From: a virus
Length of the DNA stretch: 53,162 nt
Virus record (IMG/VR): IMGVR_UViG_3300024323_000009
Span: 1-53,162 of that record
Direction: 5' to 3' (one strand)
Shown here: in pieces, positions 5,261 to 50,325 of the stretch
Layout of the letters: each line of letters begins with the position of its first letter
How positions within the stretch are numbered: position 1 is the stretch's first letter
Notes under the pieces: model-generated
Told to the model about the DNA's origin: nothing
The model's database searches: none
The model's input: only the letters and a program-made list of their open reading frames with translations
Position numbers and translations under genes: made by a program

Positions 5261-5268
5261 TTACTATT

Positions 5269-5550: not shown

Positions 5551-5551
5551 T

Positions 5552-7626: not shown

Positions 7627-7633
7627 TACTATT

Positions 7634-7831: not shown

Positions 7832-7832
7832 T

Positions 7833-9635: not shown

Positions 9636-9655
9636 CATTGCTAGTAACTCAGTCT

Positions 9656-9671: not shown

Positions 9672-9699
9672 AATACCCAAGTAGTTCGGCGCTCGACGC

Positions 9700-9800
9700 C
9701 ATTGCTTCTAGTCGTAGTAAGGGCATACTACATTGCTTCTGAAGTAGAAGGGCATCTACAGCGATAACAGGCTGTCTGTTATACTGTCAGATAACTTTTT
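9700..9800 (+). promoter_or_regulatory. Structured 5' leader of the MCP mRNA
   Basis: Two imperfect tandem copies of ATTGCTTCT...GGGCAT..CTAC lie at 9701-9731 and 9732-9759. They are followed by ATAACAG (9764-9770) pairing with CTGTTAT (9776-9782). A competing stem pairs GTTAT (9778-9782) with ATAAC (9791-9795) and is followed directly by TTTTT (9796-9800). The two stems share bases and cannot form together. Stability, attenuation or activator binding are possible roles. Confidence 0.45.
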
Positions 9801-9816
9801 ACAACAGGACAATTAA

Positions 9817-13798: not shown

Positions 13799-13806
13799 TC
13801 ACTAGA

Positions 13807-15645: not shown

Positions 15646-15716
15646 AACGAAGAATCATAACTCTTCCTTGATAACAGTGAACCAATACAAACAAAAAGAA
15701 AGGCAATGATAGTAGT

Positions 15717-16265
15717 ATGAAGAAAGTAATTATTAGTATCCTACTTGGTAGCACATTAGTAGTCGGTGCCCAAACCAATAACACCGGTGTCACTGGTTTT
15801 GTCACTCAAGTGACACAGTGGATTGCGTCATTCAACACTAACTACGATGTGGCAATCGCAGCTTGTAAAATGCGGTTGTGGACAGGGGTGGACTCTGTGC
15901 AGGGTGGAAACGAATCGTTGGTGAATGAAATCGGCGTCTCCTACGATGCACTCACGAAGAACAAGGTGCTATCTCTAGAGGCAGTCGAGAGGAATGGAGG
16001 TGTTGCTGGCACACTAATATCGGTGCAAGGAGGCGCTAGTCTCAACTTCCTCGTCCATGACTTTATGCTTTCACTCTATTGCGATGGTGGCAAGTATATG
16101 GATAATATCGTGAGTGATAAAGGCAAGAAGAATGAGATGTTTGGTGAGATAGGTATTCGTGGGTTCAAAGCGTTGGGGCCGAACACCTACACAGGAGTAG
16201 GATTAGGAACACAGTTTCCCACGTCGAGACAGTTGTATATGGCATATGTTGGTATTCGGCTCTAA
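15717..16265 (+). CDS. Putative outer-membrane beta-barrel protein
   Basis: This 182-residue protein has a good signal peptide (MKKVIISILLGSTLVVGAQ). The mature protein alternates short beta strands (SLVNEIGVSYDAL, EMFGEIGIRGFKAL, YTGVGLGTQF) and ends QLYMAYVGIRL, which fits a small 8-stranded barrel. The start follows an A-rich leader (CAAACAAAAAGAAAGG). A phage-made outer-membrane barrel could block superinfection or alter the receptor. That role is inference. Confidence 0.6.
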   Translation: MKKVIISILLGSTLVVGAQTNNTGVTGFVTQVTQWIASFNTNYDVAIAACKMRLWTGVDSVQGGNESLVNEIGVSYDALTKNKVLSLEAVERNGGVAGTLISVQGGASLNFLVHDFMLSLYCDGGKYMDNIVSDKGKKNEMFGEIGIRGFKALGPNTYTGVGLGTQFPTSRQLYMAYVGIRL

Positions 16266-16286
16266 TACTACTCAACTCTTAACTCT

Positions 16287-16385
16287 ATGATTCTCGGCAT
16301 CCTCCCATTACTCGAAGTTGGCGACGTGGCATTGCCTTTCGTTGCTGGCTTAGTGGTGGGAGTGATGCTTCTCTCCGTAGAGTAG
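16287..16385 (+). CDS. Very small hydrophobic protein
   Basis: This 32-residue ORF starts MILGILPLLEVGDVALPFVA and is almost entirely hydrophobic, with one or two membrane-spanning stretches. It fits tightly between its neighbours, and its stop is coupled to the next gene (TAG-T-ATG). Possibly a pore or regulatory peptide. Confidence 0.45.
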   Translation: MILGILPLLEVGDVALPFVAGLVVGVMLLSVE

Positions 16386-16386
16386 T

Positions 16387-17067
16387 ATGGGTACACCTAA
16401 TATCCAACAGCAGGGACCACCTACACTGAATAGGTGGTTGAATATCAATTCGGTGTTGAGGAATCAACGCGAGAGAGGCTCAGTGTTTGTGCCCACTGAC
16501 CAGCTAGAGCTTGCTAGTCATAATCTGTCTGCTGTGTGGAATGGTACGTTTAGCGATAAAGTAATACAGTTTAACTTCGCAGTGACTAACAACATTTCAC
16601 TATTGCGAAGTTCGTTCTTCAATACTGATGGCACTTTCAAACTACCTTTCGGAGATTTGATGCTTTGGAATGTGGCGCGACACAGCACTACTAAACCATA
16701 CCGTCCTACATTTCCGTTAAATCCTGTGGGATACGCATCAGTTGATAGATTTAGATTGAATAACGCTACAGATTATACTATCAATTTAGATGGAGATTAT
16801 ACTGGTCAAACACTAGGTTCTAGTTTCTCGATAGAAGCATGGACTACTCCGAGTTCGGATTTCCAGCTATCTCCGTCAACAGCAGTAGAGATTCTGACTT
16901 CGATACTGTCTCCTACTGTTGACGTTAGGACTAACGGTGCTAACTTTAATATTGCAACACACACCTCTTCCTATCAGCACTTCGAGAATACTAGCTTTAG
17001 CCAAGCAGGAGTAGGATGGGATTTACCTATGGCCTTTCCGCAGTATATCATTGACTTCACACTCTAA
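16387..17067 (+). CDS. Hypothetical virion protein
   Basis: This 226-residue, beta-rich protein without signal peptide contains LSAVWNGTFSDKVIQFNFAV (about 46-65) and ends in FPQYIIDFTL. It lies between fibre and tail genes and is likely part of the tail or fibre base. I do not recognise the family. Confidence 0.65.
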   Translation: MGTPNIQQQGPPTLNRWLNINSVLRNQRERGSVFVPTDQLELASHNLSAVWNGTFSDKVIQFNFAVTNNISLLRSSFFNTDGTFKLPFGDLMLWNVARHSTTKPYRPTFPLNPVGYASVDRFRLNNATDYTINLDGDYTGQTLGSSFSIEAWTTPSSDFQLSPSTAVEILTSILSPTVDVRTNGANFNIATHTSSYQHFENTSFSQAGVGWDLPMAFPQYIIDFTL

Positions 17068-17082
17068 TAACCAAATAAAAAT

Positions 17083-18207
17083 ATGCCAGCCTCAGCACAA
17101 GATTTTATCGGTGGTTTTGACCCATCTGCCGCAGGGAGTATAACAGGACCGCAGTTACTCGCATTGATACAGTCGGGGACACCATATGGTGATAAGGGAC
17201 TTATCGTAGTTACGGCTGATGATGGTTCTGGTAATCCTGATGTGCCTAACGCAGTAGCTACGACAAAATGGCAAGCATATGTGTGGGTGCGGCACTTAGC
17301 GTCATCGGCGGTTGCCTACCTGTGGAACCCCGCTGCCGCTAGTGATGCAACATTCCTCAAGTGGCAGCAAATCAACGTTACTGGTATTGCGGATTTCTCT
17401 ATTACCAACCAGAAGATCGCTCCCGCAGCAGTAACAGACGACAAGATCACTAGTGTCTCATATGCGAAAGTGATAGGAGCGCCGACTGGACTACCACCTA
17501 CTGGTAACGCTGGTGGTGACTTGACCGGCGTATATCCTAATCCGACAGTTGCAGCGAATGCTATCACTTCGACGAAGTTGAGTAGTGATGCGGCAGTTGA
17601 TGCTAACCGAGCAGTCGGCGCTGACCACGTTAAGAATCAAGCGATTTCGCCACTACGCCATTTACTAGTAGGTGCCGCGTATCAGTATCCCCAGACGAAC
17701 TCGGGGGCTACTAACTACGAGTTTGTATATCCTGCGGTGTTGCAGAACTTATACAAAGCAACCACTGCTGCCGATAGCACCAACGTCTCCATTCCAGCAG
17801 ACGACACTATTCCACAAGTGACAGAGGGCAAGGAGTATATTTCTACCTCGATTACGATGAAGTCGGCGTCGTCGCTATTGCGAGTGCAGTTCTCAGGACG
17901 TGTATCGGATGGGACTAACACTACATCGGTTGTAGTCGCAGCGTTTGCCACCTATGCTGGCAGCACTAGCAACGCTATCCAAACAGCCTTCACTCATATT
18001 CCTACTGCTGGAACATCGCAGAACGTGATTATTGATATAGTAATTGCATCGCCGGGACTAGGAACAGTAGTGACAGTTGCGGTTAGGTTCGGCCCTGCTG
18101 GTGGTGGTTCGACTGCTTATATGAATCAACCTTCTACTGGGCACTTATATGGGGTGTCAGCGGGTAGTATTTTAACGGTTCAGGAAATGTTCGGAGTGCT
18201 CTCTTAA
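17083..18207 (+). CDS. Tail fibre protein
   Basis: This 374-residue protein has a globular N-terminus (1-100) that may attach to the tail. A central region contains GGDLTGVYPNPTVAANAITS (about 147-166) and several A/I-T-x-x-KI/KL repeats, a signature of many phage fibre stalks. The C-terminal part (from about 205) is a Thr/Ser/Val-rich beta domain, probably the receptor-binding tip. Confidence 0.7.
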   Translation: MPASAQDFIGGFDPSAAGSITGPQLLALIQSGTPYGDKGLIVVTADDGSGNPDVPNAVATTKWQAYVWVRHLASSAVAYLWNPAAASDATFLKWQQINVTGIADFSITNQKIAPAAVTDDKITSVSYAKVIGAPTGLPPTGNAGGDLTGVYPNPTVAANAITSTKLSSDAAVDANRAVGADHVKNQAISPLRHLLVGAAYQYPQTNSGATNYEFVYPAVLQNLYKATTAADSTNVSIPADDTIPQVTEGKEYISTSITMKSASSLLRVQFSGRVSDGTNTTSVVVAAFATYAGSTSNAIQTAFTHIPTAGTSQNVIIDIVIASPGLGTVVTVAVRFGPAGGGSTAYMNQPSTGHLYGVSAGSILTVQEMFGVLS

Positions 18208-18208
18208 T

Positions 18209-19180
18209 ATGGCCGTCAAATACATCTTAGAGCAAGCTGGATTGAAGGTGGGACTCAATCCACAAGCGCCGGGAGATAGGGCAGTCCTACTCCGCTATTT
18301 GAATGAAGCTGCGTCGGAAGCATACGATCAAGCAGACGTAGATGATATGCTATTCGAGGGTTTGTTTCAGTGCAATGGCGACCAGCAAATAGCATTGCCG
18401 CCGGATGTTGGCCCTTTGCGTGCGATGCGCGAGTATTCGACGCATGTTACTTGGCGTTTGGAGCGTCAGCGTAACCGCTATAACCCCGTGAATTGGAAGA
18501 ATAGGTGGCGTAATTGGCGCGAGAAGGGAACGTCGCCGATTATGTATCCTGTCGTCAATCAAAGCACCGTGACTATAACGGTGCCCACTATTGAGAATCC
18601 GCCGATAGCGATTAGTGTGACTGGACCAACACAAGCAGCGAATAGTATCTCCGAGACAATAATAATGGATGCGTCGAGTAAGAGCACTATCGCGGCCTTT
18701 ATGAATATCACGGCGCTCAAGAAGGATAGGGTGAATACTCTCGATGTGACAGTGAAGGATGCTGATAGCACTGTTCTCGCGGTCATTCCTAACAACATGC
18801 TCCAGATGCGCTATCGCTTGCTCGACGTATCGCTATATCCGTGGACTTCTACTGCCCAAAGCGCGGTCGATCATTGGATGGAGGTCTTATATAAGCAAGC
18901 GTTGCCGTGGCTTTCTAATGATGAAGACGAGTATCCTGCGATTGGATACGATAACATACTAGTGAATAAGGTGCTCCAGCTGTGGGCCGAAGAGCAGGGT
19001 AAGGGTAGTGAAGCGATTGCGTATGATGCGAAGGCTACACGCAGTATGGCTCGTAAAAAGGAAGATCAGAATAGGGGAGTGCAAGACGAAGCTGTAATTG
19101 ACGAGAATCCACATGATACTTTGTTGCCACGCAATCGTCCACTAGGACCGGCACGCTATTCAGGACAGGTCTGGTACTAG
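18209..19180 (+). CDS. Head-tail adaptor / tail tubular A-like protein
   Basis: This 323-residue protein begins with helices (LLRYLNEAASEAYDQADVDD, about 28-47) typical of podovirus adaptor proteins that sit under the portal. A beta-rich insert (115-210) and a helical C-terminus follow. It directly precedes the nozzle-like gene, the usual gpA-gpB order. Assigned by architecture and order. Confidence 0.6.
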   Translation: MAVKYILEQAGLKVGLNPQAPGDRAVLLRYLNEAASEAYDQADVDDMLFEGLFQCNGDQQIALPPDVGPLRAMREYSTHVTWRLERQRNRYNPVNWKNRWRNWREKGTSPIMYPVVNQSTVTITVPTIENPPIAISVTGPTQAANSISETIIMDASSKSTIAAFMNITALKKDRVNTLDVTVKDADSTVLAVIPNNMLQMRYRLLDVSLYPWTSTAQSAVDHWMEVLYKQALPWLSNDEDEYPAIGYDNILVNKVLQLWAEEQGKGSEAIAYDAKATRSMARKKEDQNRGVQDEAVIDENPHDTLLPRNRPLGPARYSGQVWY

Positions 19181-19191
19181 TATTTCACTCA

Positions 19192-20943
19192 ATGAGCGAG
19201 TATAATCAAACATCATTCAAAGGTGGGATGAATCTCATCTATGATGATACGCGGATTGGTGAATCAGAATACCGCGAGGGTTTCAACATTCGCAATCGCT
19301 TCGACGTGCTAGACCAGATTCAAGGTGCAGCAGAGATTATTTCGCCACCCGGCCCTAAACAAGGGTTGTTTACGTTTGGAGACTACTTATTATTGTTCGT
19401 AGGTGGACTAGCCTTCTATCAATTCCGCGATACTCCGGGATGGCAAATAGTGCCGAACTTCAAAATGTCAGAGTCGGCACCGCGAGTATATGTCTGTGTT
19501 GTGCCAGTTAATACGACGAATTACGCGAGATTTGCAGTTCAACAGTCAGATGGTTCTGTGAATGCCGATGCTAAGATAAGTGTGCAACGCAATAACTCTA
19601 GCGCAGCATTCGGGAATGTATCGGGATTGGTTGTCCAGAATGGCATAGACCAACCGTGGTTCATATTTGTGAGCACAGTAGGGATAGTAGCGAAAGTAAC
19701 ACAGAAATATACAGAGTGGTTCTTTTCTGCTGAGGTTGACAAGCGCGAGTATGTGCCAGTCGGCACCTTCATGGAATGGTGGGAAGGGATGCTACTAGTG
19801 GTTGCGCCGGATTTTGAGAATATCTATCGTAGCGTTAGTGGACGCCCACTTGATTTCGTGATTGACGTAGATCAAAACGGTCAGAAGGCTGCGACTGAAA
19901 AGGGTGGTGGTGCAGATGTTACGTCGTATAGTGTGGGTATTGGCGGCATTACGTGTATCCGCGCTATGTCAGATGGTGGACTATTCGTCGCGTGTAGCAA
20001 TGTGACGTGCTTTAAGGTAACGGTAGATAGGTCGAACAATGCGAGGACGATATTCGGTGAACCCACCTTCATCCGTCAATTCCTCTTTAATGCTGGCTGC
20101 ATGAGTGATCGTACGATTGTAGATATTCTAGGAGACACTGCCTTCATAGACCTAGATGGATTACGGTCATTCAATGCAGTCCAGCAATACCAGAATGAGG
20201 GTAGAAACTCGGTGTTCTCATTGAAGTTAGCACCGATTTTCAAAGACATTACTCAGCTACCAGATACTACTGCTGCAATAGTCTTCGATAACTATGCGAT
20301 GTTTGGAGTCAACACACACTATGGCTACGTGATTGTGGTATATGACACGTTGAATTCGTGCTTCTCGTCACTCGATAACATCACTCAAGGGCGAGCAGTA
20401 CGGCAGTTTGCGAAGATTGACACCGATGTGAGGCGATTATATTGTATTACCGAGGATGACCGAGTACTACAGCTATATGCGCAGCGAGATGGCTTCGGCA
20501 ACCCTGTATTCGCTACTAGCACCGTCCGTCTCCAGAGTATGTGTGCGAGTGTTATGTATCAGGACTCGACTGTAAAGATGCAGTGTCCTAAGACGGAAAC
20601 ACGGTTGACGGAGTTTCGAGCACTACTCTCGGGATATAGGGCACCTTCGACAGTATCAGCTAGTGTCTATGTGGACAACCGTTTCGCAATAGCGTTACCA
20701 GATAAGCATTTGGAGTCGCCGGTCTATAATGGTTCTACTCCCTATGGTGATATAGGCTCTAGTGTCTCGAATCTAATGTGGACGATAGCAGCTTCCGGTT
20801 GCAAACAGGGATGGAAGACGTTCGTAACTCTAGAGTGGACTGGTGGAGGAACTATTACGAATGTGTATGCGTTGTTGCAAGATATTACACCGAAGAACTC
20901 CCTCAATACACAAGCTAACCTATTGTCTCAACCCTCGGCATGA
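19192..20943 (+). CDS. Tail nozzle / tubular B-like protein
   Basis: This 583-residue protein starts SEYNQTSFKGGMNLIYDDTR, then SEYREGFNIRNRFDVLDQI. This N-terminal pattern is characteristic of P22 gp10- or T7 gp12-type tail nozzle proteins. The rest is strand-rich, consistent with a beta-propeller. It forms the distal tail tube. Its stop overlaps the next start (ATGA). Confidence 0.75.
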   Translation: MSEYNQTSFKGGMNLIYDDTRIGESEYREGFNIRNRFDVLDQIQGAAEIISPPGPKQGLFTFGDYLLLFVGGLAFYQFRDTPGWQIVPNFKMSESAPRVYVCVVPVNTTNYARFAVQQSDGSVNADAKISVQRNNSSAAFGNVSGLVVQNGIDQPWFIFVSTVGIVAKVTQKYTEWFFSAEVDKREYVPVGTFMEWWEGMLLVVAPDFENIYRSVSGRPLDFVIDVDQNGQKAATEKGGGADVTSYSVGIGGITCIRAMSDGGLFVACSNVTCFKVTVDRSNNARTIFGEPTFIRQFLFNAGCMSDRTIVDILGDTAFIDLDGLRSFNAVQQYQNEGRNSVFSLKLAPIFKDITQLPDTTAAIVFDNYAMFGVNTHYGYVIVVYDTLNSCFSSLDNITQGRAVRQFAKIDTDVRRLYCITEDDRVLQLYAQRDGFGNPVFATSTVRLQSMCASVMYQDSTVKMQCPKTETRLTEFRALLSGYRAPSTVSASVYVDNRFAIALPDKHLESPVYNGSTPYGDIGSSVSNLMWTIAASGCKQGWKTFVTLEWTGGGTITNVYALLQDITPKNSLNTQANLLSQPSA

Positions 20944-21321: not shown

Positions 21322-22464
21322 ATGGGAGACTACGGCGGTTCAGCACCCAGCTACGGCGAGTATATGAATGCCCTCAGTAATTACTATACTGGGGACATTG
21401 GAAGCTATTCGCAGTCGGTCAACAATGCGTCGCAGCAGAACGATTTGAGTAACTTGGGTATCTCGAACCTACTCACGCAAGGATACTCGAATATAGGGTT
21501 GCAGAACCTTACTAACTATGCAATGCCCTACAATCAGATAGGACAGCAGATTGAGAATAGTAATGCACAAGCAGGTGCGAATACTAACCTCGCGCAGATT
21601 AGCGGTGCAGGTGGGCAAGTGTCTAGAGTGGCGAACCAGTTAGAGCAGCAGGTTAACCCAGAGTACTATCAAATACGCGGCGCAGCGGGTAATCAGGCGA
21701 CCAATCTCGTCAATAGCATCAATCTGAATGGATTGAGTGGTGGTGAACAAGCAGCAGTGGAGCGTTCATTAGCACAGAGCAATTATGCTAGTGGGAACTT
21801 GGGACTAGATAATGCTACTAATGCCGTATCGAACGCAATGAACTTTGGTGACTACTTGAATACGAAGCGGACGGCACTTAGTAATGCGTTGAACACTGCC
21901 TCTACTACGATGAATGCGGTGAATAATACGTCGTGGAACCCTGTATCAACAGCGTTGTCGCAGCCTGATAGTAGCACTCAGAGCAACTGGGGAACGTCGC
22001 AGTTCGCCGGAACTACTAAGGCATCCGGCACCAATGAGAATACTACCTCATCGGATTTAATGTCTAGCATATCGTCGTTACTAGGTTCTCAGATGGGTTA
22101 TCAGTATTCCGCGAACGCTAGTAACTCTTTCGGCGGCATCTTGAGCAGTCAAACCTCGTCAATAGGTGACGTTTGCTGCTTCATCTTTCTCGAAGCTTAT
22201 CATGGTACGTTGCCGTGGTGGGTTAGGGAGTGCCGAGACTATTATTATCGTGAGTGTCCGCAGCTAGCTTCCGGGTATCGCCGCATGGCGAAGTGGCTAG
22301 TGCCGATTATGCGGCACTCACGATTAGTTCGTGGACTGGTGTGGCATGTTATGGTGAAGCCGATTACAGAGTATGGGAAGTGGATGGTTGGACTATCCGC
22401 TAAAGCGAGTGGTCGTGCTAGTCGTAACTTCTGGTTCCGAGTGTGGAGCTACTTAGGGCGATGA
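21322..22464 (+). CDS. Internal virion protein with Cys-rich C-terminal domain
   Basis: This 380-residue protein's residues 1-275 are Asn/Gln/Ser-rich and helical, typical of internal or ejection proteins. From about 281 the composition changes abruptly to a basic, aromatic domain starting DVCCFIFLEAYHGTLPWWVR. It resembles the CFI-box C-terminal domain seen at the ends of diverse secreted or phage proteins (recalled, not searched). The stop overlaps the glycosyltransferase start (ATGA), suggesting coupled expression. Confidence 0.7.
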   Translation: MGDYGGSAPSYGEYMNALSNYYTGDIGSYSQSVNNASQQNDLSNLGISNLLTQGYSNIGLQNLTNYAMPYNQIGQQIENSNAQAGANTNLAQISGAGGQVSRVANQLEQQVNPEYYQIRGAAGNQATNLVNSINLNGLSGGEQAAVERSLAQSNYASGNLGLDNATNAVSNAMNFGDYLNTKRTALSNALNTASTTMNAVNNTSWNPVSTALSQPDSSTQSNWGTSQFAGTTKASGTNENTTSSDLMSSISSLLGSQMGYQYSANASNSFGGILSSQTSSIGDVCCFIFLEAYHGTLPWWVRECRDYYYRECPQLASGYRRMAKWLVPIMRHSRLVRGLVWHVMVKPITEYGKWMVGLSAKASGRASRNFWFRVWSYLGR

Positions 22465-23249
22465 CTGTCGTAGCTCTAGTATCAGTTCCAGAAGGTGCCG
22501 ACTTCGATGTTTGCACGTTAGCATTCTCGTCGCTACGAGTTGGCTTTCCCTCTGCGACAATTAAAGTGTATGATAATGGTAATGGCGAGGAAGTTACTAG
22601 TAGGTTGAAGCCTCTCGCAGACAGTATCGGCGCTGAACTCCATAGGTGTATCGAACCAAAACACCACGCTGATTGGATTAGCCTCATGGTTAGGATGCAC
22701 GATGGACCACTACGAGTAGTAGATACTGATACTATCTGGTGGGAGAGCTGTGAAGGATTCGATTTCGATTCTCCGCTAGCAGGCCGGTTCGTTCCTACTA
22801 TGTGGAATGAGTTCTCTCAGTGTCCGTCGTTTGCTCGCTTACATACGTCATTCATGTGGATACGTGATTGTGCAGAGTTATGCAACCGCATCAGGGAAGC
22901 GTATCCTCCAGCGCATTCGGCGTGCGGAGAGTATTGTCCATGCAACCCATTCCTACCAGCAGTTGGCTTCGTAGGTGGTAAGCCAGTGTTTTGGGATTCT
23001 ACTGCGATGCTCTACAATATGATAGGTGGTGCTCATTTCGAGCCGAAGCATTTGGAGTGCTATACGCATGTGAATTCGGCGTCGTTCTATAAAGTAATGC
23101 TCGAACGAGTAGAGAACAAGACAGCTTTCGCACGACAACATGAGCTAGCTAAGTATGAACCCGAGAAGCTTCGAGGATTCTGGCGTGCCGAGGACCGTTA
23201 CTATGCCGAGATGAATCGGCGATATTTGGAAGGAGTTAATAAGCAATAA
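22461..23249 (+). CDS. Putative glycosyltransferase (GT-A type)
   Basis: This 262-residue protein starts at the ATG overlapping the previous TGA. An N-terminal Rossmann-like start (MTVVALVSVPEG) and VYDNGNG fit GT-A enzymes, as does the DxD motif in RVVDTDTIWW (D88, D90), which usually binds metal and nucleotide sugar. Several Cys residues lie at about 140-165. Its place among ejection protein genes is odd. It may modify virion proteins, host surface or DNA. Confidence 0.6.
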   Translation: MTVVALVSVPEGADFDVCTLAFSSLRVGFPSATIKVYDNGNGEEVTSRLKPLADSIGAELHRCIEPKHHADWISLMVRMHDGPLRVVDTDTIWWESCEGFDFDSPLAGRFVPTMWNEFSQCPSFARLHTSFMWIRDCAELCNRIREAYPPAHSACGEYCPCNPFLPAVGFVGGKPVFWDSTAMLYNMIGGAHFEPKHLECYTHVNSASFYKVMLERVENKTAFARQHELAKYEPEKLRGFWRAEDRYYAEMNRRYLEGVNKQ

Positions 23250-23250: not shown

Positions 23251-24888
23251 ATGGCTAGAAAGAAAAGCGGACACCACACAACGGCATTGGGGTTATTGGC
23301 TGGAACAGGACTAACTTCTATGTTGGGCGGCGATTCTACGCCTGACCCCAATGAGGCATATGGTTCTGAGAATCTTGCGGATGCTAACAGCACAAACCCA
23401 TTATATCTGGATAGTCAGGGTAATGATGTTAGCAGTGCCGCGCAGAAGTATGGAACGAAGAACCGTTATGTAGAGCCAACTGCGGGTCAACGGATGTTTA
23501 GACCGGCGTTGGCACAGCAGATTGACACTCTCAACACTAAGTATATCGATCAACCTCTAGCAGCTCAACAGCAAGAGCAAACTACACAGGACATACTTCG
23601 TCCGAAGGTTAGAGCGGTGATGGAACATGCTGCGAAGGTATCAGGTGGTGATCCGTCGAAGATCAGCAATGAAGATGTGGATGCGATGGTATTGCAACAT
23701 GGAGCAGAGGCTAGTAATAATGCGCTTTCGACGGGAGTGTTGAATACTGAAAGACTTAATCAAACCTTGTCTAAACTAGGAACACCAGAACGAGAAGCTT
23801 CACTGCAAGATTATACTACACGAACGGCACATGAAAAAGCTGCAAAGGATTACTATGCTGGACTAGGAGGCGCTCAATCTGACGAAGCTTTAGCGCAAGC
23901 TAGATATGGAAGTGCATTGGCGGGTGGGAGATTGAATATACTACCATTAACACTAGGAGCCGAAGCTTCTCAGGCAGCTTACGGGAGTGCTCTCAATGAC
24001 GCAAGATTGCCGTACGCTGGCAATGCTGCTAGTGCAGAAAATGCAGCAAACATACTTAGTACGGCACAAAGTAATGCAGAACTTCCCAATGTTAGTCGTA
24101 AGGCTCTAGCAAGTGGACTGATTGCTGACTATACAGGCACTAACACTAAGGACGAAATAGCAAATCTACCACTATCAAACGCTGCTCGTCAAGCCGAAGC
24201 ACAACGAGCGATTGTCAATGCTAGAACTATAAATCCCGGTCCTGATAATCCGAACATGAGGATGATAAATGAGAATGGAACAATATCGTCCGCTCCTAAT
24301 CTCTATTATAGTCCTTCGATGTTGAATAAGATGGGAACTATGCAGCAGTTTGGACAGCAGTATGGTGGCCAGAATACCCAAGGTGGAACAGCGATATTAC
24401 CGAATGGTTCGGCGGTAGTAGGGTTGCCTCGTAAAGCACAGACTATTCCGGCGCTCTCTGTACTTCCTATCTCGTCAGCTACTAGCACTAATGCGTCGGC
24501 TCCTCCTATCACTCAGTTCGCCTCTCAGCCCTCTAACTATGGATTAACTACTCCATATCCGACAGTCACGCCATCGAGTAGTCCAGCGGTGACTCCTACA
24601 CTCTCGTCACCTCCTACCGCTACATCGCCGGGTTACTATTCTCCACAGACGACACTACCTACTAGTAGCATGGGGCCAACTTCGCTGACGACTGGGCAGA
24701 GTGCGTTGCCACAAGGAATGCAACAGGCTATTCAAAGCAATCAGGCAATACGAGATGATAGGATTAAGTCGCTCCTCGACCGGCAGAAGAAGTATCCTAT
24801 CTATATGAAGTATAATGGTGAGGCTGAGGAACTGCAAAACTTGTTGCAGCAACAGCACCTACAACAGATCATGGATAACTCCCAGTAA
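23251..24888 (+). CDS. Internal virion (ejection) protein
   Basis: This 545-residue, low-complexity protein has a short Gly-rich hydrophobic stretch near 12-26 (LGLLAGTGLTSMLGG), long helical Ala/Gln-rich segments (60-330), a Pro/Thr/Ser-rich linker (395-480) and a charged helical tail. Internal proteins ejected with DNA look like this and lie here in podovirus genomes. No enzyme motif is visible. Confidence 0.7.
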   Translation: MARKKSGHHTTALGLLAGTGLTSMLGGDSTPDPNEAYGSENLADANSTNPLYLDSQGNDVSSAAQKYGTKNRYVEPTAGQRMFRPALAQQIDTLNTKYIDQPLAAQQQEQTTQDILRPKVRAVMEHAAKVSGGDPSKISNEDVDAMVLQHGAEASNNALSTGVLNTERLNQTLSKLGTPEREASLQDYTTRTAHEKAAKDYYAGLGGAQSDEALAQARYGSALAGGRLNILPLTLGAEASQAAYGSALNDARLPYAGNAASAENAANILSTAQSNAELPNVSRKALASGLIADYTGTNTKDEIANLPLSNAARQAEAQRAIVNARTINPGPDNPNMRMINENGTISSAPNLYYSPSMLNKMGTMQQFGQQYGGQNTQGGTAILPNGSAVVGLPRKAQTIPALSVLPISSATSTNASAPPITQFASQPSNYGLTTPYPTVTPSSSPAVTPTLSSPPTATSPGYYSPQTTLPTSSMGPTSLTTGQSALPQGMQQAIQSNQAIRDDRIKSLLDRQKKYPIYMKYNGEAEELQNLLQQQHLQQIMDNSQ

Positions 24889-24899: not shown

Positions 24900-27800
24900 A
24901 TGCCTATCAAACGTCAGTTGACAGATGAGGAATTGGCAGAGTTAGATCGTCAAGGGTATGATGTGTCACAGGTGCCGAAGGATGGAGTGACGGTATTATC
25001 GCCAGAGGAGCAGCAACAACAGGCACTCAAGGCACAAGGAGAGCAGCAGGGACAACTCGGCGCTGTCGGCGCTACTCTCAAGGGACATGCTGGTTCTCTC
25101 ATAGGTGGTGGTGCAGGGGCATTAACAGCTGGTGCAGTAGTGCCAGCTATTGCCGCATCATGGGCAGGTGGGCCGGTTACTGGCATACCGGGAACATTGC
25201 TAGGACTAGGTGCGATGGCGGCGGGTGGATTAGCTGGGTCTTATGCTGGCCAAAAAGCACAAGAGGCGATATTGCCGCAAGCGACGAATCAACAGTTACA
25301 GCAGGCAGCAGTGGCAGCACAGGCAGCGTATCCAAAGACAGCACTAGCTACTGATGTGGGTGCTGGAGCACTACTAAGTGGTGGCAGACCATCATTGACA
25401 GTTCCGAGTCTAGCAGGTAGTGGACTTAAGAAGATATTGACTCAAGGCATAGCTTCACAGTTACTCCCACAAGAAGCTAGTGCGATACGTAACGTGGTGA
25501 CTATGAACGCGGCGAATCTAGGTGTGAATGCCGGATTGCAGGCTGCGACGACTGGGAAGGTGGACCCCACTGAGCTTGCTGCGTCAGGACTAGCAGGAGT
25601 TGCGTTCTCACAACCTAACTTCCTTGGTCGAAAACTGTTGAAGTGGGAACCGCTATCACGAAGTGCCGCACCACAAGCTGAGACTCAAGCGACTCCTTAT
25701 ACTATTGAGGATGGTCAGATACAAACTGTGGAGCAACGTCAAGCGAGGCAGAAGCAGCAGGGCAACGAGGATTGGCAGCGCCAGCAACTAGAGACGCAGC
25801 AGGCGAATGAGTATTCGGCGCAACAGGCTGCACAACTAGAAGCGCAACAACAGCAACAGAGAGATGCCGCTGAGTATCGCCAAGCGAACTGGAAGTCCCT
25901 CTCTCCGGCTCAACCTGCTAATAAGGACGGGACTCCTAACTATATGGTAGGCGATCAGGGAGTGAAGAGGGCGTGGTTGAAGCGCAACTCGGAGCCGGTT
26001 CCTGATGATGCGGACGAGATTACCCGAGCATCGGTACAGGCGCGTAACAACCTCTTGAAGCAAACTCCTGTAAGTCAGATGCGCGACGAGATGTATGTGC
26101 AGGACTTGGCGACGAAAGACCCAGAGGGCTATCAGCAATATCAGCAACAGCAACAGGCTCAGATGCAACGCATCCAACAGATGCAACAAGATGTTGCTAG
26201 CCAGAATGCTAGAATAGCGAATCAGACAGAAGCGCAGAAGCAAGCGTTGGCACAACAGCAAGCGCAGGCTAAAGCGCAACAGGTGCAGGCTCAACAGCAA
26301 CTCGCGGCACGTCAGAAGCGTCACGATGATTTCGTAGCAGCATTCCAACGCGATCAACAGGCACAACGTCAGATAGAGGCGGAACAGCTTAGACAGCAGA
26401 TACTAGGGAGGGGTTTGGAGCAACGTAGCGCGGCGACTGGCACCGCCGAGATGCAAGCGAAAGCTGCGAGAGAGGCAGCATTTGCACAAGCGGAGCGAGA
26501 GGGTGAGGCTGCTAGACAGCGTGCGCTAGAGATAGAAGAGCAGCAGCGCCGAGATGAAGGGGATACACGCTATCAAGGTGTTACTCCCGGCGACAAAGAA
26601 GTATCTAGAGCTACTCCCGAACTCCTCGGAGAAGCCGCGAAACGAGCTACGACTATCGGCCAACTACAGCCAGAAGATCGCTTAACTATCCCAGAGACTG
26701 GCGGCGAGGCGAGAGGAGCGGCGAGGATAGGGGAGCGGTTGATCTTGCTATCAAGGATGGCGACGAAGGATACCGGCTATCACGAACTCCTACACCAGAC
26801 ATTGAGTGATATGGACAAGAGTGGCGATAGGTATATGATGGAACTCGCTGGGAGGATGCGCCGAGTCCATGCGGGAGAGGAGCAACTAGCGCAACAGGGT
26901 GGAGAGCAATACCAGCAGCAAGTCGAAGGTCGTAGGAATATGATGGCGAAGGCAGGCTCTACACTCAAAGATGTCTATGCTGCGTTATCGGCGCGATTGG
27001 GGACGGAGAATCCGGGCCTTTTGAGGAGGAACCTAATCGCTATCGCTAGAGGGGCGAGTGGGCCGGAGACACCATTGATAGCGAAAGCTAGTGCAGCAAT
27101 AGGCGGAAAAGGAATCATACACTATAATACTAATGATGACTTCAAACGCTACAATGAGTTAGTATCCAAAATCCGAACCGCTCAATTATCTGAAAGACCT
27201 TCTATCTGGAAAGAACTAGAAGAGATTAAGAACCGCAATGGTGGAATGCCACCACAAGGTGTTCATATTGATGGCTCTAACGGTACTAAGTATCAAGGTG
27301 TTGAACCTGAACAACAGCGTAGAGTGGCTGGAGCTAATGTTAATCGTGCTCTAGGACTACTCGGCGCTTCTATGTATGATAAGAACTATTCTCAAACTGC
27401 GGTTAAAGAGATGGTTCAGAATGCTTTTGATGCGGTTAAAGGAGTCAATGAACCAACTATTCGACTACACTTGGAAGAGAGTGGTGGAGAGACTATAGGA
27501 GTTTCTGATAATGGTCGTGGAATGACTCCAGAGATAGTGTTGACTAAGCTTCTTCCAGCATTTGAGAGCGGCAAAGAAAGCACAGAAAGTGCTGGCGGCT
27601 ATGGATTAGCGAAAGTTGCACTTTTTAGTGGTGCTGATGACTTTAGAGTAGTGACAGTTGCAGAACATCAAGGGCAGAAGTTGCAGACAGAGGTGAATGG
27701 TGATGGCAAAGCATGGCTAGACTTCGTGAATCATGGTGCTGATTTGCCACTTGACCTGAACCAACCGGGCAGACATACACTCGACAGCAAGGGTGATTTA

Positions 27801-30800
27801 GAAGTGTGGGTTAAGCCTGTGGATGCTGAGACTACTACTGGCACTAAGATGGAAATTACTCCGTCGAAGAATTACGACAAGTATGACGCTAGAAAAGTAT
27901 TCAAAAACATCGCCAAGAACGAGCCGGGAACCATCAAGTTCTTAGATGAATATGGTACAGAGATTAAGCCAGATGCGGCAGCTTTAGCACCGGCACAGCA
28001 TACAGTTATAACTAAGGGTGCAGAAGTAAAAGTTCACTATGATCCCAGTGAATCTCCAGAACGTCAATGGGGTTTTCCAGTGATGAATAATGGATTGGTT
28101 CAATTCGACTACCCTTTCTACGAAGATGTTAAACTACCTTCGATTAAAATTAACGTCAACCCTACAGTGGACGTAATGAATCCAGAGTATCCGTTCACCA
28201 ACAATCGTGATGCTTTGAAAGGTGAGTCTAGGCAAGCAGTTGAGAATATCTTGAAGAATATGTCTCAACAATATAAGCAGAAAGTGCTAGATGTATTTCA
28301 GTCTCGCATGAATGATACTACTAAAATCGAAGGCTCTCGACAGAGATTCCTCGATGTTAGTGGTAGAATGAAGCCGGAAGATGTTACTGAGATAGCCACG
28401 GATAAGAGGATACAGGACTTGAATAAAGCATTGAGTAGAGTTCATACTGCTGCATTCAAATATCTCAACCGGCGTTTTGGTGATTTCTGGTCTAATGCTA
28501 GATACAAAGGTTTTGCCAATGGTGGAGGTTTCAAAGGTGTGCGATTTGGAGTGCCAGAGAAGGGTAAGAAAGGGGAAATTTATTATGACTTACAGCACGT
28601 ATTCAATGATGGGATACAAGCATTTCGAGATGGTAAGTATGGACCAGCAGAGATGAATAAAGCGGTTGGTGAAAGTTTAGCAGGTGTAGTATTACATGAG
28701 ATTTCGCACCAGGTTTCACACTCCGAAGGTGAAGGTCATGCTATAGCAATGACTGACCTCGCTGGTCCAATGGCTGAATACATTCGTAAATCAATCCGAG
28801 CAGTAGAAAAAACATTCACACACGATAGTGATATATTAAACTTCTATGAATGGTACAGAGATAAAATTAAAAATACGGAACTCGCAGCAGATGAGGCGCG
28901 TGATTTCATTCGCCAAGGTCAACGCGGCGAACCAACAGGACAAATCTTCTCAGCAACTAATAGAGAAGCTAGCACCAGAACTAGTGAAGCAGGCGGAGAA
29001 ACCAAGTTTCAGCCAGTAGATATTGGTGATGTGTTAGAGCCACAAGAAGGACGATTAGGGAAGCAGGGCTATTACCACCTCCGCGATGAACGCCTACAAG
29101 CCTCGTCGGTTCACATTACTGACGACAAGATTCATGTCATTAACTTGCAAGTGCCACAAGAGAAACAAGGTAAAGGTATCGGCTCCGAAGTGCTCGGCAA
29201 ACTCAAAGGACTCTCCGACTCTATCGGTAAGCCTATCGAATTGATAGCACACCCCGATAGTGAAAAGCAACAGGAACAGTTGAACCGATTCTATGAGCGT
29301 AACGGATTCACAAAGCTAGAAGGCGACGATCGGAAGTTTAGCTATTTTCCACCAGCATCTAGTATGAAGTATCAACCCGTAGCTGGCCATCCTGAGGACG
29401 AATCACCAGTAGCGAAGGAGGCGTCGTTGAAGCTTACGCAATCGGCGATTGACCGCATTCGTAGTATTCCGGCGAAGATAGCACCGGAGCTAGGTGATGC
29501 GTTCCAGCAGACTCTAGCGAAGAAGCAGAACCTCCTTGGGCAGTGGTGGAACAAAGCGGCATACGCTATTAATAAGCTCTCGACTAACGAGCAGGCGACG
29601 TTACAAGATGTACTCTATAACGAGCGTGATAGTAGGCAGAAGATGTTTGTTCCACAGAAGCTGCGCGAGGCTTATGGCGCGATTCGGCAGGCATATCTCG
29701 ATAGCGCCGAACACCAACGTGCTATCAATGAACCCATCCAAGAGAGTGATGGCACTATGCGTCCTATCGAAGTGGACCCCTTCTACCATGCGACTACGAT
29801 GGAGCCGAAGGTAGCAGATGTGTTTCGGCAGGGGACGGATAAGGCTGAGGAGCAGCGGTTGACGGACATCTTTGTGCAACACCAACTCCGGCATATTGAC
29901 CCGAAGATCACTGACCCTGAGCAACGACTCGCGATTGCACATAGTAACCTCAAAGATATTATCGCGTCACTGCGCGGCTCCGCCAAGTTCGACACCGGCG
30001 ATCATAGCAACCAGACGTTCTATAATGCAGCGCGGAGAGCCGAGGGAATACTCCTTCCTAAAGAGTTCATGCGCCAAGATTTGAAGCGCAACCTACAAGT
30101 GTATTTCATGCGACGTGCAGCGGATAATGCTTATTATGAGCATATGGAGAGTCAGCCGAAGATAGCATCAGCGTTAGGTTATACTAAAGATGCGTGGGGT
30201 AACAAACTGCCGAAAGCTGACGAGTTACTATCGGGCAACGATCAAGTCCGTGCAGTAATGAACATGCTCAAGGGTGAGGGGATTACGAAGACGAGTATGC
30301 AGGAGCACGCGGTAGAGTCACTCGCGAGTGCAGTGATGCTAGGACCAACCACCGAAGGCCATAAGATAGTGGGTAGTCAAGCGATGGCGATGACCTACGC
30401 AGATAACCCAGTGGAAGCCGCGAAGATGTATCTGCACGCGATACGCAATCTTGGGAGTGGATGGGTTAATACTAAGAATGAGCCAACTGGTAGTTACGCA
30501 CACACGCTAGAGACTGGCTATCACGTCCTCGATAGTAAGTCGGCGCATGACATGCTCAATACTCACTTGACTGCTGCTGAACGACTCCGTGGGTTGACTA
30601 CTGGGATACGCGAGATTTATACTATTGGTGGGTTGACTGAACGGTTCAACAAGAGCATGTTGCAGGGGATGGCCGAATATCTCATACCCTCGAAACTAGC
30701 CGCAGCTAGGAATGGTGATGCCGGAGCTTTAGCACTAGTCCGGCATATAGACCCCTCCTTCACTCCCGACAAAGCTTATACTGACAAGCAACTCGTAGCA

Positions 30801-31847
30801 ATAGCATCCGAGTTCGCCAATCTGATGCACGGCACTAAGGATGCTAGGACATTGCCTGCGTGGATGCTACACGATAACGAAGTCTCATCATTCTTCAAGC
30901 TCGCTTCGTGGAACATCGCCCAGACTAATAACTTCATGCGTAACGTATGGACACCAGCCAAGCAGGGCAACTTCCAACCGCTGCTAATGTCCACCCTTGG
31001 CGCTGCCCTCGGAGGTTATGCCTTGACTCAGTTGCGGGAGGCAATCAATGCGAAGCGTTCCGGCGTCCCGTCCTTCGGGGAAATGGCCGCCTCGGAGCGG
31101 GGATTGTTTCAACCGGCGCTCGCATATCAGGCGATGGCGATGGCCAGCTATGCCGGATTTGGGGGGATACTCTCGACGGTCGCAAGGTGGCCATTCGACA
31201 TTGCGTTCCGAAACGCTCCACAAGGCGCGACGTTTCCACTCGACGAAGAGGTTAGCGGACTAGTGAAGGTGGGCAACAACGTAGTGGATGCGTTGTTGAA
31301 TGACCCTACTGGCAACTGGATGAACATAGGCGCTCATGGTATTGCGGACATATTGAAAAATAACATTCAACTAGCGCGAGTGGGATATAACCACATGGCC
31401 GATTTAGGAATGCTATCGCCGGAGCGTAACGAGTTGAAGGCGACTAGTGATAAGATGGCCGAGTTACGCCGGTTCAAACAGGTGAGTGGTTATACTGTTG
31501 ATTTACAGGGTGGTGCTGGTGATGAGAACCCCTATATGAACTTAGAGCAGCGTAGCTTTAAGAGGGAGCAAGATATGGGCAAAGCAATGCAGGAGTTGCC
31601 GGCGCTAGTGAACACGTTAGTTACGAAGTATGGTGATAAGCCTGACGTGATGCTATCGAAACTAAGGTCATTGAAGAGCAATAGCACTTACGAAACTATG
31701 CCCTCGTTTGAAGATACTCCATTGGTGTTCACCAGATACTTGTCCTTCTTGCAGAAACGTGAGGGTAACAATGCCGCAAATGCTAGGCTGATGGACTATA
31801 TGCAGCACAAGATTGTGAATGCGGCTAAAGCTTCGGCAGTTCCTTAA
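24900..31847 (+). CDS. Giant polyvalent ejection protein
   Basis: This is a 2315-residue protein. A Gly/Ala-rich membrane-like stretch at about 60-125 is followed by Gln-rich coiled coils to 557. HELLH (628-632) is an HExxH zinc-protease motif. A GHKL/Hsp90-type ATP fold follows: E837/N841, DNGRGM (870-875), GGYGLAK (899-905). A second zinc-protease motif HEISH is at 1266-1270. A GNAT domain contains QGKGIG (1423-1428) and FYERNGF (1464-1470). The long helical C-terminus (1495-2315) has a hydrophobic patch near 2030-2110. YQGV or (Y/F)QPV occurs at 558, 798, 1370 and 1491, at the domain borders. Such multi-domain proteins are packaged in the virion and injected to act before phage genes are expressed. 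The 798-1369 part is AT-richer, suggesting domain insertion. Confidence 0.85.
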   Translation: MPIKRQLTDEELAELDRQGYDVSQVPKDGVTVLSPEEQQQQALKAQGEQQGQLGAVGATLKGHAGSLIGGGAGALTAGAVVPAIAASWAGGPVTGIPGTLLGLGAMAAGGLAGSYAGQKAQEAILPQATNQQLQQAAVAAQAAYPKTALATDVGAGALLSGGRPSLTVPSLAGSGLKKILTQGIASQLLPQEASAIRNVVTMNAANLGVNAGLQAATTGKVDPTELAASGLAGVAFSQPNFLGRKLLKWEPLSRSAAPQAETQATPYTIEDGQIQTVEQRQARQKQQGNEDWQRQQLETQQANEYSAQQAAQLEAQQQQQRDAAEYRQANWKSLSPAQPANKDGTPNYMVGDQGVKRAWLKRNSEPVPDDADEITRASVQARNNLLKQTPVSQMRDEMYVQDLATKDPEGYQQYQQQQQAQMQRIQQMQQDVASQNARIANQTEAQKQALAQQQAQAKAQQVQAQQQLAARQKRHDDFVAAFQRDQQAQRQIEAEQLRQQILGRGLEQRSAATGTAEMQAKAAREAAFAQAEREGEAARQRALEIEEQQRRDEGDTRYQGVTPGDKEVSRATPELLGEAAKRATTIGQLQPEDRLTIPETGGEARGAARIGERLILLSRMATKDTGYHELLHQTLSDMDKSGDRYMMELAGRMRRVHAGEEQLAQQGGEQYQQQVEGRRNMMAKAGSTLKDVYAALSARLGTENPGLLRRNLIAIARGASGPETPLIAKASAAIGGKGIIHYNTNDDFKRYNELVSKIRTAQLSERPSIWKELEEIKNRNGGMPPQGVHIDGSNGTKYQGVEPEQQRRVAGANVNRALGLLGASMYDKNYSQTAVKEMVQNAFDAVKGVNEPTIRLHLEESGGETIGVSDNGRGMTPEIVLTKLLPAFESGKESTESAGGYGLAKVALFSGADDFRVVTVAEHQGQKLQTEVNGDGKAWLDFVNHGADLPLDLNQPGRHTLDSKGDLEVWVKPVDAETTTGTKMEITPSKNYDKYDARKVFKNIAKNEPGTIKFLDEYGTEIKPDAAALAPAQHTVITKGAEVKVHYDPSESPERQWGFPVMNNGLVQFDYPFYEDVKLPSIKINVNPTVDVMNPEYPFTNNRDALKGESRQAVENILKNMSQQYKQKVLDVFQSRMNDTTKIEGSRQRFLDVSGRMKPEDVTEIATDKRIQDLNKALSRVHTAAFKYLNRRFGDFWSNARYKGFANGGGFKGVRFGVPEKGKKGEIYYDLQHVFNDGIQAFRDGKYGPAEMNKAVGESLAGVVLHEISHQVSHSEGEGHAIAMTDLAGPMAEYIRKSIRAVEKTFTHDSDILNFYEWYRDKIKNTELAADEARDFIRQGQRGEPTGQIFSATNREASTRTSEAGGETKFQPVDIGDVLEPQEGRLGKQGYYHLRDERLQASSVHITDDKIHVINLQVPQEKQGKGIGSEVLGKLKGLSDSIGKPIELIAHPDSEKQQEQLNRFYERNGFTKLEGDDRKFSYFPPASSMKYQPVAGHPEDESPVAKEASLKLTQSAIDRIRSIPAKIAPELGDAFQQTLAKKQNLLGQWWNKAAYAINKLSTNEQATLQDVLYNERDSRQKMFVPQKLREAYGAIRQAYLDSAEHQRAINEPIQESDGTMRPIEVDPFYHATTMEPKVADVFRQGTDKAEEQRLTDIFVQHQLRHIDPKITDPEQRLAIAHSNLKDIIASLRGSAKFDTGDHSNQTFYNAARRAEGILLPKEFMRQDLKRNLQVYFMRRAADNAYYEHMESQPKIASALGYTKDAWGNKLPKADELLSGNDQVRAVMNMLKGEGITKTSMQEHAVESLASAVMLGPTTEGHKIVGSQAMAMTYADNPVEAAKMYLHAIRNLGSGWVNTKNEPTGSYAHTLETGYHVLDSKSAHDMLNTHLTAAERLRGLTTGIREIYTIGGLTERFNKSMLQGMAEYLIPSKLAAARNGDAGALALVRHIDPSFTPDKAYTDKQLVAIASEFANLMHGTKDARTLPAWMLHDNEVSSFFKLASWNIAQTNNFMRNVWTPAKQGNFQPLLMSTLGAALGGYALTQLREAINAKRSGVPSFGEMAASERGLFQPALAYQAMAMASYAGFGGILSTVARWPFDIAFRNAPQGATFPLDEEVSGLVKVGNNVVDALLNDPTGNWMNIGAHGIADILKNNIQLARVGYNHMADLGMLSPERNELKATSDKMAELRRFKQVSGYTVDLQGGAGDENPYMNLEQRSFKREQDMGKAMQELPALVNTLVTKYGDKPDVMLSKLRSLKSNSTYETMPSFEDTPLVFTRYLSFLQKREGNNAANARLMDYMQHKIVNAAKASAVP

Positions 31848-33705: not shown

Positions 33706-35142
33706 TTAGGAGGCGCTATTACTATCTCGGCTCGCCGCATTCGGTGATGGGTTTTGACTTGTGGAGGTAGTGGTGGCTCTTGACTCCACAACTTGAGTGC
33801 CGTCAGCAACAATAGTAACAACACTAGGAGTAGGAGTGATGGTGGGGGGAATAGCGGTAGCTTGTTGTTTTTGTTGGAGTGCTTCATGGTGAGATTTGGA
33901 GATGCGGAAGGTTCCACGATCTATGTTTTGAGTTTGGGGATTGGTGTTGATAGCTCTGTCGGTGGCTACAAGAGACTCCATCACTTCCATCAACTCGGTC
34001 TTCTTGAGGTCGTTGCCGAACTGGAGTTGGAGGCGTTTGAACGACGTAGTAGATTCGCCTTGCTCTGCGAGATACCGTACTATGTCATTCCCCGATTCAT
34101 GCAAGACGTTTCTCCCTGAGTTAGCAAACGCTAGGTGCATATTGACTTCGGCTTCTCCTAGCGTGTCGAAGGCTTCCTTAGCAGTAGCAATGGAGATGAC
34201 ATTCGTATCATATCGCTCCGCGTAGTGTAGTATGGTCATCAACTTGAGCCAGTGTATCTTCTTCCTCCCGTAGTAGTCATCGAGTCGAGGATTCTTATTG
34301 ACTCGATGCTTTATCATATCTCCCGACTCATACATCGTGTTGAAGTAGTGTTCAGCTTCGGGGGAGAGCGTGACTTCTCCCACTACGCGAGTAGCTATCT
34401 CCTTCACATGCGCGACAATCTCTACATACGCTTGTTGTTGCTCTGGTGATAGCTCTCTCGGCGCACGGAAGAACCTAGCACCATCAGCATAAATCATAAT
34501 CGTCCTCGACGTGAATCCTTTCTTGACAACTCTATCAGCCAAGAGATCACGTATGCTATTGGGAGTAGTGCCAGCAAGCATATTGACACACACGTTCTTG
34601 ATATGATGGACTCCTTGGTGACGGGTTTCATAGCTTAGATTACCAGCATCGTAGAGGTCGTTTAGTACAGCTACCATATCGGCCATATCACGGGAGAAGA
34701 GGACTTCTAGTTCTTCGATGTTGAAGGAGCATGAACAGTGAGCGGTAATGCGTTTCTCGCCGTTCGAGGACTTGTACTCGGCGCTCCGTATCTCCTTGGA
34801 GAGGAGTTCGATAATACGTTGGCATGTGACTTTCGATGGTGATGTTTTGATTAGCTGGATGATACGGCCATCCTTGTCCACTGTAGTCATTAGTGGGTGA
34901 AGTATCACGGAGAGCACTTGTTTGATAGTTCGCCCTTTGCCAGTAGCAGGAGGGCCGATGAGTATGGAGTAGAGGTTCGAGAATATGGAGTTGTGGTCGG
35001 GTAGTTCAGTGATGCGATTGGCGCGTAACCAGACCTTGCGTTGGAGCGCACTGGCGATCATGTGGATAAAGCCCCACCGTATGAAGATTAGGGGCGATTC
35101 TAGGTCTTGTGTGTATAGTAGCCATCTGTCATAGTTTGTCAT
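33706..35142 (-). CDS. DUF3987-like helicase / primase-helicase ATPase
   Basis: This 478-residue protein has a P-loop GPPATGKGRT (63-72), with Gly after the P-loop Lys as I recall for this phage family, and an acidic ELEVLFSRDMADM region. Polar-helical motifs such as LLAGTTPNSIRDLL (about 190-203) and SRTIMIY follow. The N-terminus (PLIFIRWGFIHMIASALQRKVWLR) is typical of DUF3987-type replicative helicases. From about 425 the tail is Thr/Ser/Pro-rich and disordered. It lies with DNA polymerase and SSB genes and probably unwinds DNA at the fork. Confidence 0.7.
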   Translation of the reverse strand: MTNYDRWLLYTQDLESPLIFIRWGFIHMIASALQRKVWLRANRITELPDHNSIFSNLYSILIGPPATGKGRTIKQVLSVILHPLMTTVDKDGRIIQLIKTSPSKVTCQRIIELLSKEIRSAEYKSSNGEKRITAHCSCSFNIEELEVLFSRDMADMVAVLNDLYDAGNLSYETRHQGVHHIKNVCVNMLAGTTPNSIRDLLADRVVKKGFTSRTIMIYADGARFFRAPRELSPEQQQAYVEIVAHVKEIATRVVGEVTLSPEAEHYFNTMYESGDMIKHRVNKNPRLDDYYGRKKIHWLKLMTILHYAERYDTNVISIATAKEAFDTLGEAEVNMHLAFANSGRNVLHESGNDIVRYLAEQGESTTSFKRLQLQFGNDLKKTELMEVMESLVATDRAINTNPQTQNIDRGTFRISKSHHEALQQKQQATAIPPTITPTPSVVTIVADGTQVVESRATTTSTSQNPSPNAASRDSNSAS

Positions 35143-50323: not shown

Positions 50324-50325
50324 AA

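Follow-up and report, generated by a model that had tools for sequence, protein, structure and literature searches.

A polyvalent ejection-type protein of a short-tailed phage with a GHKL ATPase joined to a zincin, and a GNAT domain, between conserved ends

In an uncultured short-tailed phage represented by an IMG/VR virus record of 53,162 bases, the whole of which was analysed (hereafter the window), we identified a giant polyvalent protein, probably an ejection protein, with exchangeable cargo in the middle of the chain between conserved ends. Its cargo consists of a zincin (zincin A), a GHKL ATPase joined to a second zincin (zincin B) and an acetyltransferase of the GNAT fold. As the best explanation, which we regard as reasonably probable, we propose an ejection scaffold that delivers this cargo, with the GHKL-zincin B pair acting as an ATP-gated cutter of host targets and the GNAT domain acetylating host or defence proteins. 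The computed part of this explanation comprises the ORF, the modelled GHKL and GNAT folds, the catalytic motifs invariant in 23 giants, the scaffold fold and the exchange of cargo; presence in the virion, catalysis by the cargo enzymes, the targets assigned to them and cleavage of the linkers between domains by the zincins of the giant are presumed.

Results

Genome context and domain organization of the giant protein

The plus strand of the window carries the late genes and the minus strand the replication genes (DNA polymerase, primase/helicase, exonuclease and helicase). The giant ORF is the final late gene and is convergent with the primase and the replication genes (Table 1). The late gene immediately upstream of it lacked a homologue at E 1e-3 among the 15 loci compared. 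Elsewhere among the late genes, a 268-aa product (22443-23249, plus strand) looks glycosyltransferase-like by eye and is without a PHROG match; on the replication arm, next to the helicase, a 612-aa protein (48506-50344, minus strand) matches phrog_249, which is labelled porphyrin biosynthesis.

A preliminary description of this DNA had delimited the ORF exactly as we find it and had proposed a giant multi-enzyme ejection protein with the N, G1 and G2 boxes of a GHKL ATPase, two HExxH motifs, an acetyltransferase core and a membrane-like segment. Each of these elements was recovered in our analysis, the last of them as the single hydrophobic segment of the protein, and the ejection role gains support from the gene position, the fold of the C-terminus and the match of zincin A to a solved internal virion protein (see below). 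At least two HExxH motifs arose in only 2 of 2000 shuffles of the protein (chance probability about 0.001). With GHKL, GNAT and zincin domains all in one ORF, the protein is polyvalent in the sense of having at least two unrelated catalytic domains per chain. What that description had missed are the recurrence of the GHKL domain and the second HExxH motif as one composite module, the conserved ejection scaffold formed by both ends, and a repeated linker motif. By inspection of the sequence, a long Q/A-rich stretch lies upstream of aa 556.

Table 1. Coordinates of the features discussed; positions refer to the window, and in the last three rows to the locus named
Feature	Position	Strand	Residues	Remarks
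Late gene preceding the giant gene, also conserved there in relatives	21322..22464	+	380 aa	possible ejection partner
Late gene immediately upstream of the giant gene	23251..24888	+	545 aa	
Giant protein ORF	24900..31847	+	2315 aa	ATG start
N-terminal scaffold	24900..25649	+	aa 1-250	glycine-rich; includes hydrophobic segment aa 67-85; kept in related giants
Linker motif 1, RYQGV	26568..26582	+	aa 557-561	before zincin A
Zincin A	26622..27134	+	approx. aa 575-745	HELLH 628-632; candidate third ligand E660/E661; profile match 9sfn_G
Linker motif 2, KYQGV	27288..27302	+	aa 797-801	before GHKL
GHKL ATP-binding domain and transducer	27297..28310	+	approx. aa 800-1137	N-box, G1, G2, fold
Zincin B	28467..28934	+	approx. 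aa 1190-1345	HEISH 1266-1270; Glu1276 replacing third His; WLM/YgjP/SprT-like via relatives
Linker motif 3, KFQPV	29004..29018	+	aa 1369-1373	before GNAT
AcrVA5-like GNAT acetyltransferase	29034..29360	+	aa 1379-1487	Pfam, structure model
Linker motif 4, KYQPV	29367..29381	+	aa 1490-1494	start of C-terminal scaffold
C-terminal all-helical ejection scaffold	29382..31844	+	aa 1495-2315	T7-core/ejectosome-like fold
Primase/helicase gene opposite the giant gene	33706..35142	-		served to locate syntenic relatives
L078 giant	14400-20447	-		sigma region
L080 giant	13886-18961	-	aa 799-991	ECF-type sigma factor domain
L086 giant	13520-19396	-	aa 1064-1235	ECF-type sigma factor domain

The two conserved ends probably form an ejection scaffold

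Searches of annotated phages with TBLASTN, using the whole giant protein or its aa 1498-2315, gave zero matches, and pattern scans based solely on the window protein found nothing, so that alignments of conserved genes were required to find relatives. Among the relatives located through the primase alignment, most loci that include this region also contain a giant ORF, about 1300-2700 aa long and convergent with the primase; such an ORF occupies the same place in Desulfofustis phage LS06, Podoviridae ctLwi270 and Microcystis phage Mel-JY34. BLAST comparison of the window giant with these related giants showed the N-terminal 250 and the C-terminal 820 residues to be common to them, whereas the middle is mostly not.

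The AlphaFold2 model of aa 1370-2315 (pLDDT 68) matched the PhiM1 ejectosome (8vb2_A; Foldseek E 9.7e-6) and, over 256 residues, the T7 core protein (Z 12.0), pointing to the core/ejectosome fold of T7 gp16-type ejection proteins. The Z-scores against ejection proteins (12.0, 10.2, 9.5 and 9.1) are moderate for a helical model and lie below 13, the level at which the tool warns of a common arrangement; still, the top matches outside the GNAT part are ejection proteins. Among the viral models in BFVD, the matches are internal virion, structural and large polyvalent proteins. Profile searches of the PDB with the sequence of the C-terminus returned chance matches only, and the ejection fold therefore rests on the model. 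By position and fold, the assignment of the giant as an internal-virion (ejection) protein is well supported, if short of proof; the protein would accordingly be present in the virion, and fold and gene position suggest its delivery into the host with the DNA.

Zincin A belongs to the same picture. Its profile matched the solved 'Internal virion protein' 9sfn_G (E 7.5e-9), and it is frequent in these giants irrespective of the other cargo. A HELLH zincin stands 204-373 residues ahead of the ATPase in L115, L119, L121, L122 and others, and the window has the same order at a distance of 209. BLASTP matches of window aa 560-796 in close relatives apparently reflect a short RYNEL segment rather than the zincin and were left uncounted. 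Separately, at the site where L132 has HEIGH, L139, L145, L147, L142 and other close scaffold relatives have EExxHS followed by a HEF/EFIA stretch; in the zincin of these loci the first metal-binding His is seemingly lost, and the domain is perhaps inactive.

The GHKL ATPase

The ATPase is defined by an N-box (EMVQNAFD, aa 837-844), a G1 box (DNGRG, aa 870-874) and a G2 box (GGYGLAK, aa 899-905), and both Pfam HATPase_c_3 (E 1.3e-8) and HATPase_c (E 9.6e-7) exceed their cut-offs. In the model of aa 575-1345 (overall pLDDT 56), the ATPase part mostly reaches 65-87 and the zincin B part mostly stays at or below 60. Across the ATP-binding and transducer domains, the modelled ATPase matches TRAP1 (E 1.5e-9), topoisomerase VI-B (Z 15.7), GyrB and MORC; topoisomerase VI-B is the top structural match, with Hsp90 equally good. 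The preliminary description had called this domain Hsp90-type. At the level of the superfamily that label stands, as the model predicts the GHKL plus middle/transducer fold that Hsp90 has; however, this fold is common to Hsp90, topoisomerase VI-B, GyrB and MORC and defines the superfamily only, and membership in the Hsp90 family proper was rejected, the NCBIfam HSP90 model scoring 23.7 bits against a cut-off of 455. The same description had placed its motifs in the expected folds, to be checked by HMMs and structure models: this held for the GHKL and GNAT domains, whereas the zincins are backed by alignments and profiles and not by a confident model.

The sole PHROG match of the giant is RIIA (E 2.5e-5), and the GHKL profile matched the RIIA of P184 with 94% probability over the ATPase part only. 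This raises the alternative that the protein is not injected at all and, made late, works in the producing cell like rIIA. A relationship to RIIA over the whole protein was rejected, as the match is confined to about 130 of 735-825 positions. With the likeness ending at the ATPase domain, the fold and zincin matches leading to ejection proteins, and the gene position and the 2315-aa size also speaking against it, we deem a role confined to the producing cell highly improbable.

GHKL and zincin B form a recurrent module

When viral contigs were scanned with an alignment of the GHKL-zincin region from three giants, 31 loci were returned, and in all of them the GHKL domain lies in an ORF of 1631-4519 aa. 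An HExxH motif follows 428-629 aa past the N-box in 30 of the 31 loci, and in 21 of 22 once near-copies were removed; in an alignment of 23 sequences, the residues of the N, G1 and G2 boxes and the HExxH are invariant. As judged from sequence, the GHKL ATPase and zincin B are hence one joint module. Most of the GHKL-linked zincins display the pattern HExxH-x5-H-x3-F, the window (E1276) and L019 having Glu in place of the His that would supply the third ligand. Zincin B members match the YgjP-like family in 17 of 20 cases and the WLM family in 14 of 20, and the top PDB match of the zincin B profile is Wss1p (E 0.0018). The window zincin B itself scores with zero Pfam families, and thus its resemblance to the WLM/YgjP/SprT (Wss1-type) proteases is a remote one, drawn from its relatives.

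This resemblance, together with topoisomerase VI-B being the top structural match of the ATPase, would fit a function in clearing proteins from DNA: the GHKL clamp would close on DNA, as in topoisomerase VI-B and MORC, and a Wss1/SprT-like protease would strip bound or cross-linked proteins from incoming or replicating phage DNA. We think such a function quite unlikely, given that the family match is a remote one and does not extend to the zincin B sequence of the window, that no DNA-binding domain was recognised, and that the Hsp90 matches are as good as those to topoisomerase VI-B.

Relatives of the GHKL-zincin pair were absent from 84,980 prokaryote genomes, and a canonical member had zero matches among annotated phages; both scans were limited in reach, making these absences weak evidence. 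A plasmid search recovered free-standing GHKL ATP-binding proteins only, and PADLOC yielded nothing convincing. The C-terminal scaffold of the window has no detectable relation to those of the other GHKL giants (hhalign 1.5%). With such C-termini in its carriers from other lineages, the module has seemingly passed from one scaffold to another.

The GNAT domain

Acetyltransf_7 matched aa 1406-1471 with E 4e-4, which is under Pfam's own cut-off, and a GNAT fold is predicted by the structural model: against AcrVA5 (6IUF) it gave Z 10.4 and rmsd 2.7 with 92 of 95 residues aligned at 27% identity, the runner-up GNAT reaching Z 8.5. A single close relative of the segment lies in L072 (46%). Giants of Vibrio phage 1.185.O and of Tenacibaculum phage Gundel_1 contain GNAT segments as well, and the Gundel_1 protein carries a structural annotation. 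The proteins that AcrVA5 is reported to acetylate include Cas12a and many others (PMC11021501).

Cargo is exchanged on the scaffold

Scanning with the C-terminal scaffold gave 22 loci with 33-40% identity across about 800 residues, mostly in genomes of 49-55 kb. The GHKL-zincin B segment is present in 0 of these 22 scaffold-sharing loci, a GHKL search of 18 scaffold records found the window only, and a GNAT occurs in a single phage (two records) among the 22. Other domains take their place: one scaffold-sharing locus has the ADP-ribosyltransferase ART-PolyVal (E 4.6e-30), SLT transglycosylase is a further cargo of this or related scaffolds, and sigma factor domains (Table 1; Sigma70_r4_2 E 1e-16 and 1e-12) lie within giants at the same genomic place as that of the window. 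Sigma domains in giant ejection-type proteins would allow a sigma factor to be injected with the phage DNA, and we found no description in the literature of sigma factors inside such giants. LPD38 was not found in the window genome, and searches of the window protein revealed no LPD domain; LPD38 is present in L013 and one A3 member, and LPD23 in L086. By sequence pattern, the L149 giant (4872-10382, plus strand) has ART-PolyVal at about aa 910-1010, right before the conserved C-terminal scaffold. In the L061 giant, a segment at about aa 1267-1439 ending in DIRYQGD looks ART-PolyVal-like by eye and went undetected by Pfam.

A linker motif repeated at the domain junctions

The motif K/R-Y/F-Q-G/P-V occurs at all four junctions of the giant (4 observed versus 0.0075 expected from shuffles), as does the looser K/R-Y/F-Q-x-V (4 versus 0.053), both patterns having been chosen post hoc. 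The codons differ among most of the copies. Across all giants, K/R-Y/F-Q/S is found 162 times versus 140 expected, slightly above chance, and our claim is therefore confined to protein-specific repeats. As counterparts of the window motif, K/R-Y/F-S-E stands between segments in the giants of L065, L151, L152 and L153, being repeated in L065 (four times), L151 (three times) and L152; L061 has three copies of K/R-Y-QGD. Three readings of the motif are conceivable, namely a site of processing, a signal for docking or a remnant of past module exchange; if it is cut, the zincins of the giant itself may do the cutting.

Such cutting is central to an alternative in which the giant is a maturation machine devoid of a host target: its zincins would cleave the K/R-Y/F-Q-x-V linkers of the giant and perhaps of further head proteins, with the GHKL unit helping to fold, unfold or load the chain so that it can pass through the tail. 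The repetition of the motif at each domain junction and the commonness of zincin A in giants of whatever other cargo agree with this, as do the proposal by Iyer et al. of zincin autoprocessing in polyvalent proteins and the cutting of P1 DdrB before packaging (PMC5512222). Nevertheless, nearly all scaffold relatives manage without GHKL-zincin B, which is found in giants with a C-terminal scaffold that shows no detectable relation to that of the window; this is what one would expect of cargo and not of an assembly part. As the GNAT domain would, moreover, lack an obvious role, we hold a pure maturation function to be unlikely.

Discussion

A model for delivery and action

Under the favored explanation, that of an ejection scaffold with exchangeable cargo, the conserved N-terminus and the helical T7-core-type C-terminus would carry the protein in the head and then out via the tail. 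It would exit the head either ahead of the DNA or together with it, the ends would help to build or cross a conduit, and the cargo would refold in the cytoplasm; we infer these steps from the window data together with N4 gp50 and T7 gp16 (PMC12633501). Along the chain, the cargo would comprise zincin A, followed by the GHKL-transducer joined to zincin B and then the AcrVA5-like GNAT.

Proteins with a GHKL-transducer unit undergo ATP-driven closure as dimers, and fusion of such a unit to a protease suggests an ATP-gated cutter: on binding ATP, the GHKL dimer may close round a host protein or a DNA-protein complex, whereupon the attached zinc protease may cut the target. The GNAT domain might acetylate host or defence proteins ahead of any phage gene expression. 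We favor host or defence targets since the scaffold can do without the cassette; the relation of the GNAT to AcrVA5 points the same way. The targeting of host defence, suggested in the preliminary description, is presumed. Going further, the protein could represent a new class of injected effector, with a GHKL-transducer and Wss1/SprT-like zincin clamp-protease beside an AcrVA5-like GNAT, which cuts itself free at Lys-Tyr-Gln linkers and disables defences before phage genes are expressed. Taken as a whole, we consider this proposal doubtful. The N4 vRNAP has a zincin yet is packaged uncut (PMC5512222), which means that self-cutting cannot be taken for granted.

The arrangement of a conserved scaffold around an exchangeable middle may reveal the anatomy by which the ejection machinery of short-tailed phages is armed, and the middle segment is a defined spot in which to seek injected anti-defence enzymes. 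Recurrence of the GHKL-zincin pair in giant phage proteins means that one biochemical study informs many phages, and the repeated junction motif renders the long-standing idea of zincin self-processing directly testable.

Comparison with known systems

The GHKL-zincin module, a proposed ATP-gated metalloprotease, is apparently undescribed in the searchable literature: a search for GHKL or HSP90 domains with phage metallopeptidases or polyvalent proteins, covering few subscription papers, gave nothing further. The closest precedent in overall design is the polyvalent proteins of Iyer et al. 2017, for which zincins, GNATs and self-processing were described (PMC5512222); the text of that study mentions neither GHKL, HSP90 or histidine kinase ATPases, nor WLM/SprT domains or sigma factors. 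The window protein is like them in combining several unrelated enzymes in a chain with a zincin hub and a GNAT, and its relatives on the same or related scaffolds share ART-PolyVal, LPD38 and LPD23 with them.

The T7 gp16-type ejection proteins (T7 core, PhiM1, 9sfn) are similar in their helical C-terminal fold and late-gene position, with zincin A in common with 9sfn_G; the window differs in a C-terminus whose sequence likeness to them is below profile detection and in its large enzyme cargo in the middle. Judged from PHROG and profile comparison, the GHKL domain has its nearest phage relative in RIIA, which a jumbo-phage survey later than that of Iyer et al. describes as a GHKL protein with a variable C-terminus, but the RIIAs are separate proteins of about 735-825 aa with nothing alike beyond the ATPase. 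Whereas most GHKL-linked zincins share their active-site pattern with WLM/YgjP/SprT-like metallopeptidases such as Wss1, they are distinguished by fusion behind a GHKL-transducer and, in the window and L019, by Glu at the site of the third ligand. AcrVA5, the top structural match of the GNAT domain, is a small free-standing GNAT of fewer than 100 residues, unlike the window GNAT, which is a domain inside a 2315-aa chain.

The gene for N4 gp50 is likewise the final late gene at a point of convergence. Its product, the N4 vRNAP, is a giant ejected protein with an N-terminal membrane segment, a central enzyme, a zincin and a helical C-terminal part (PMC12633501), a layout that the window giant shares. 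In the window giant, however, no RNA polymerase family was detected at E 1 in Pfam or PHROGs, the centre is occupied instead by the GHKL-zincin module and the GNAT, and a zincin precedes the ATPase.
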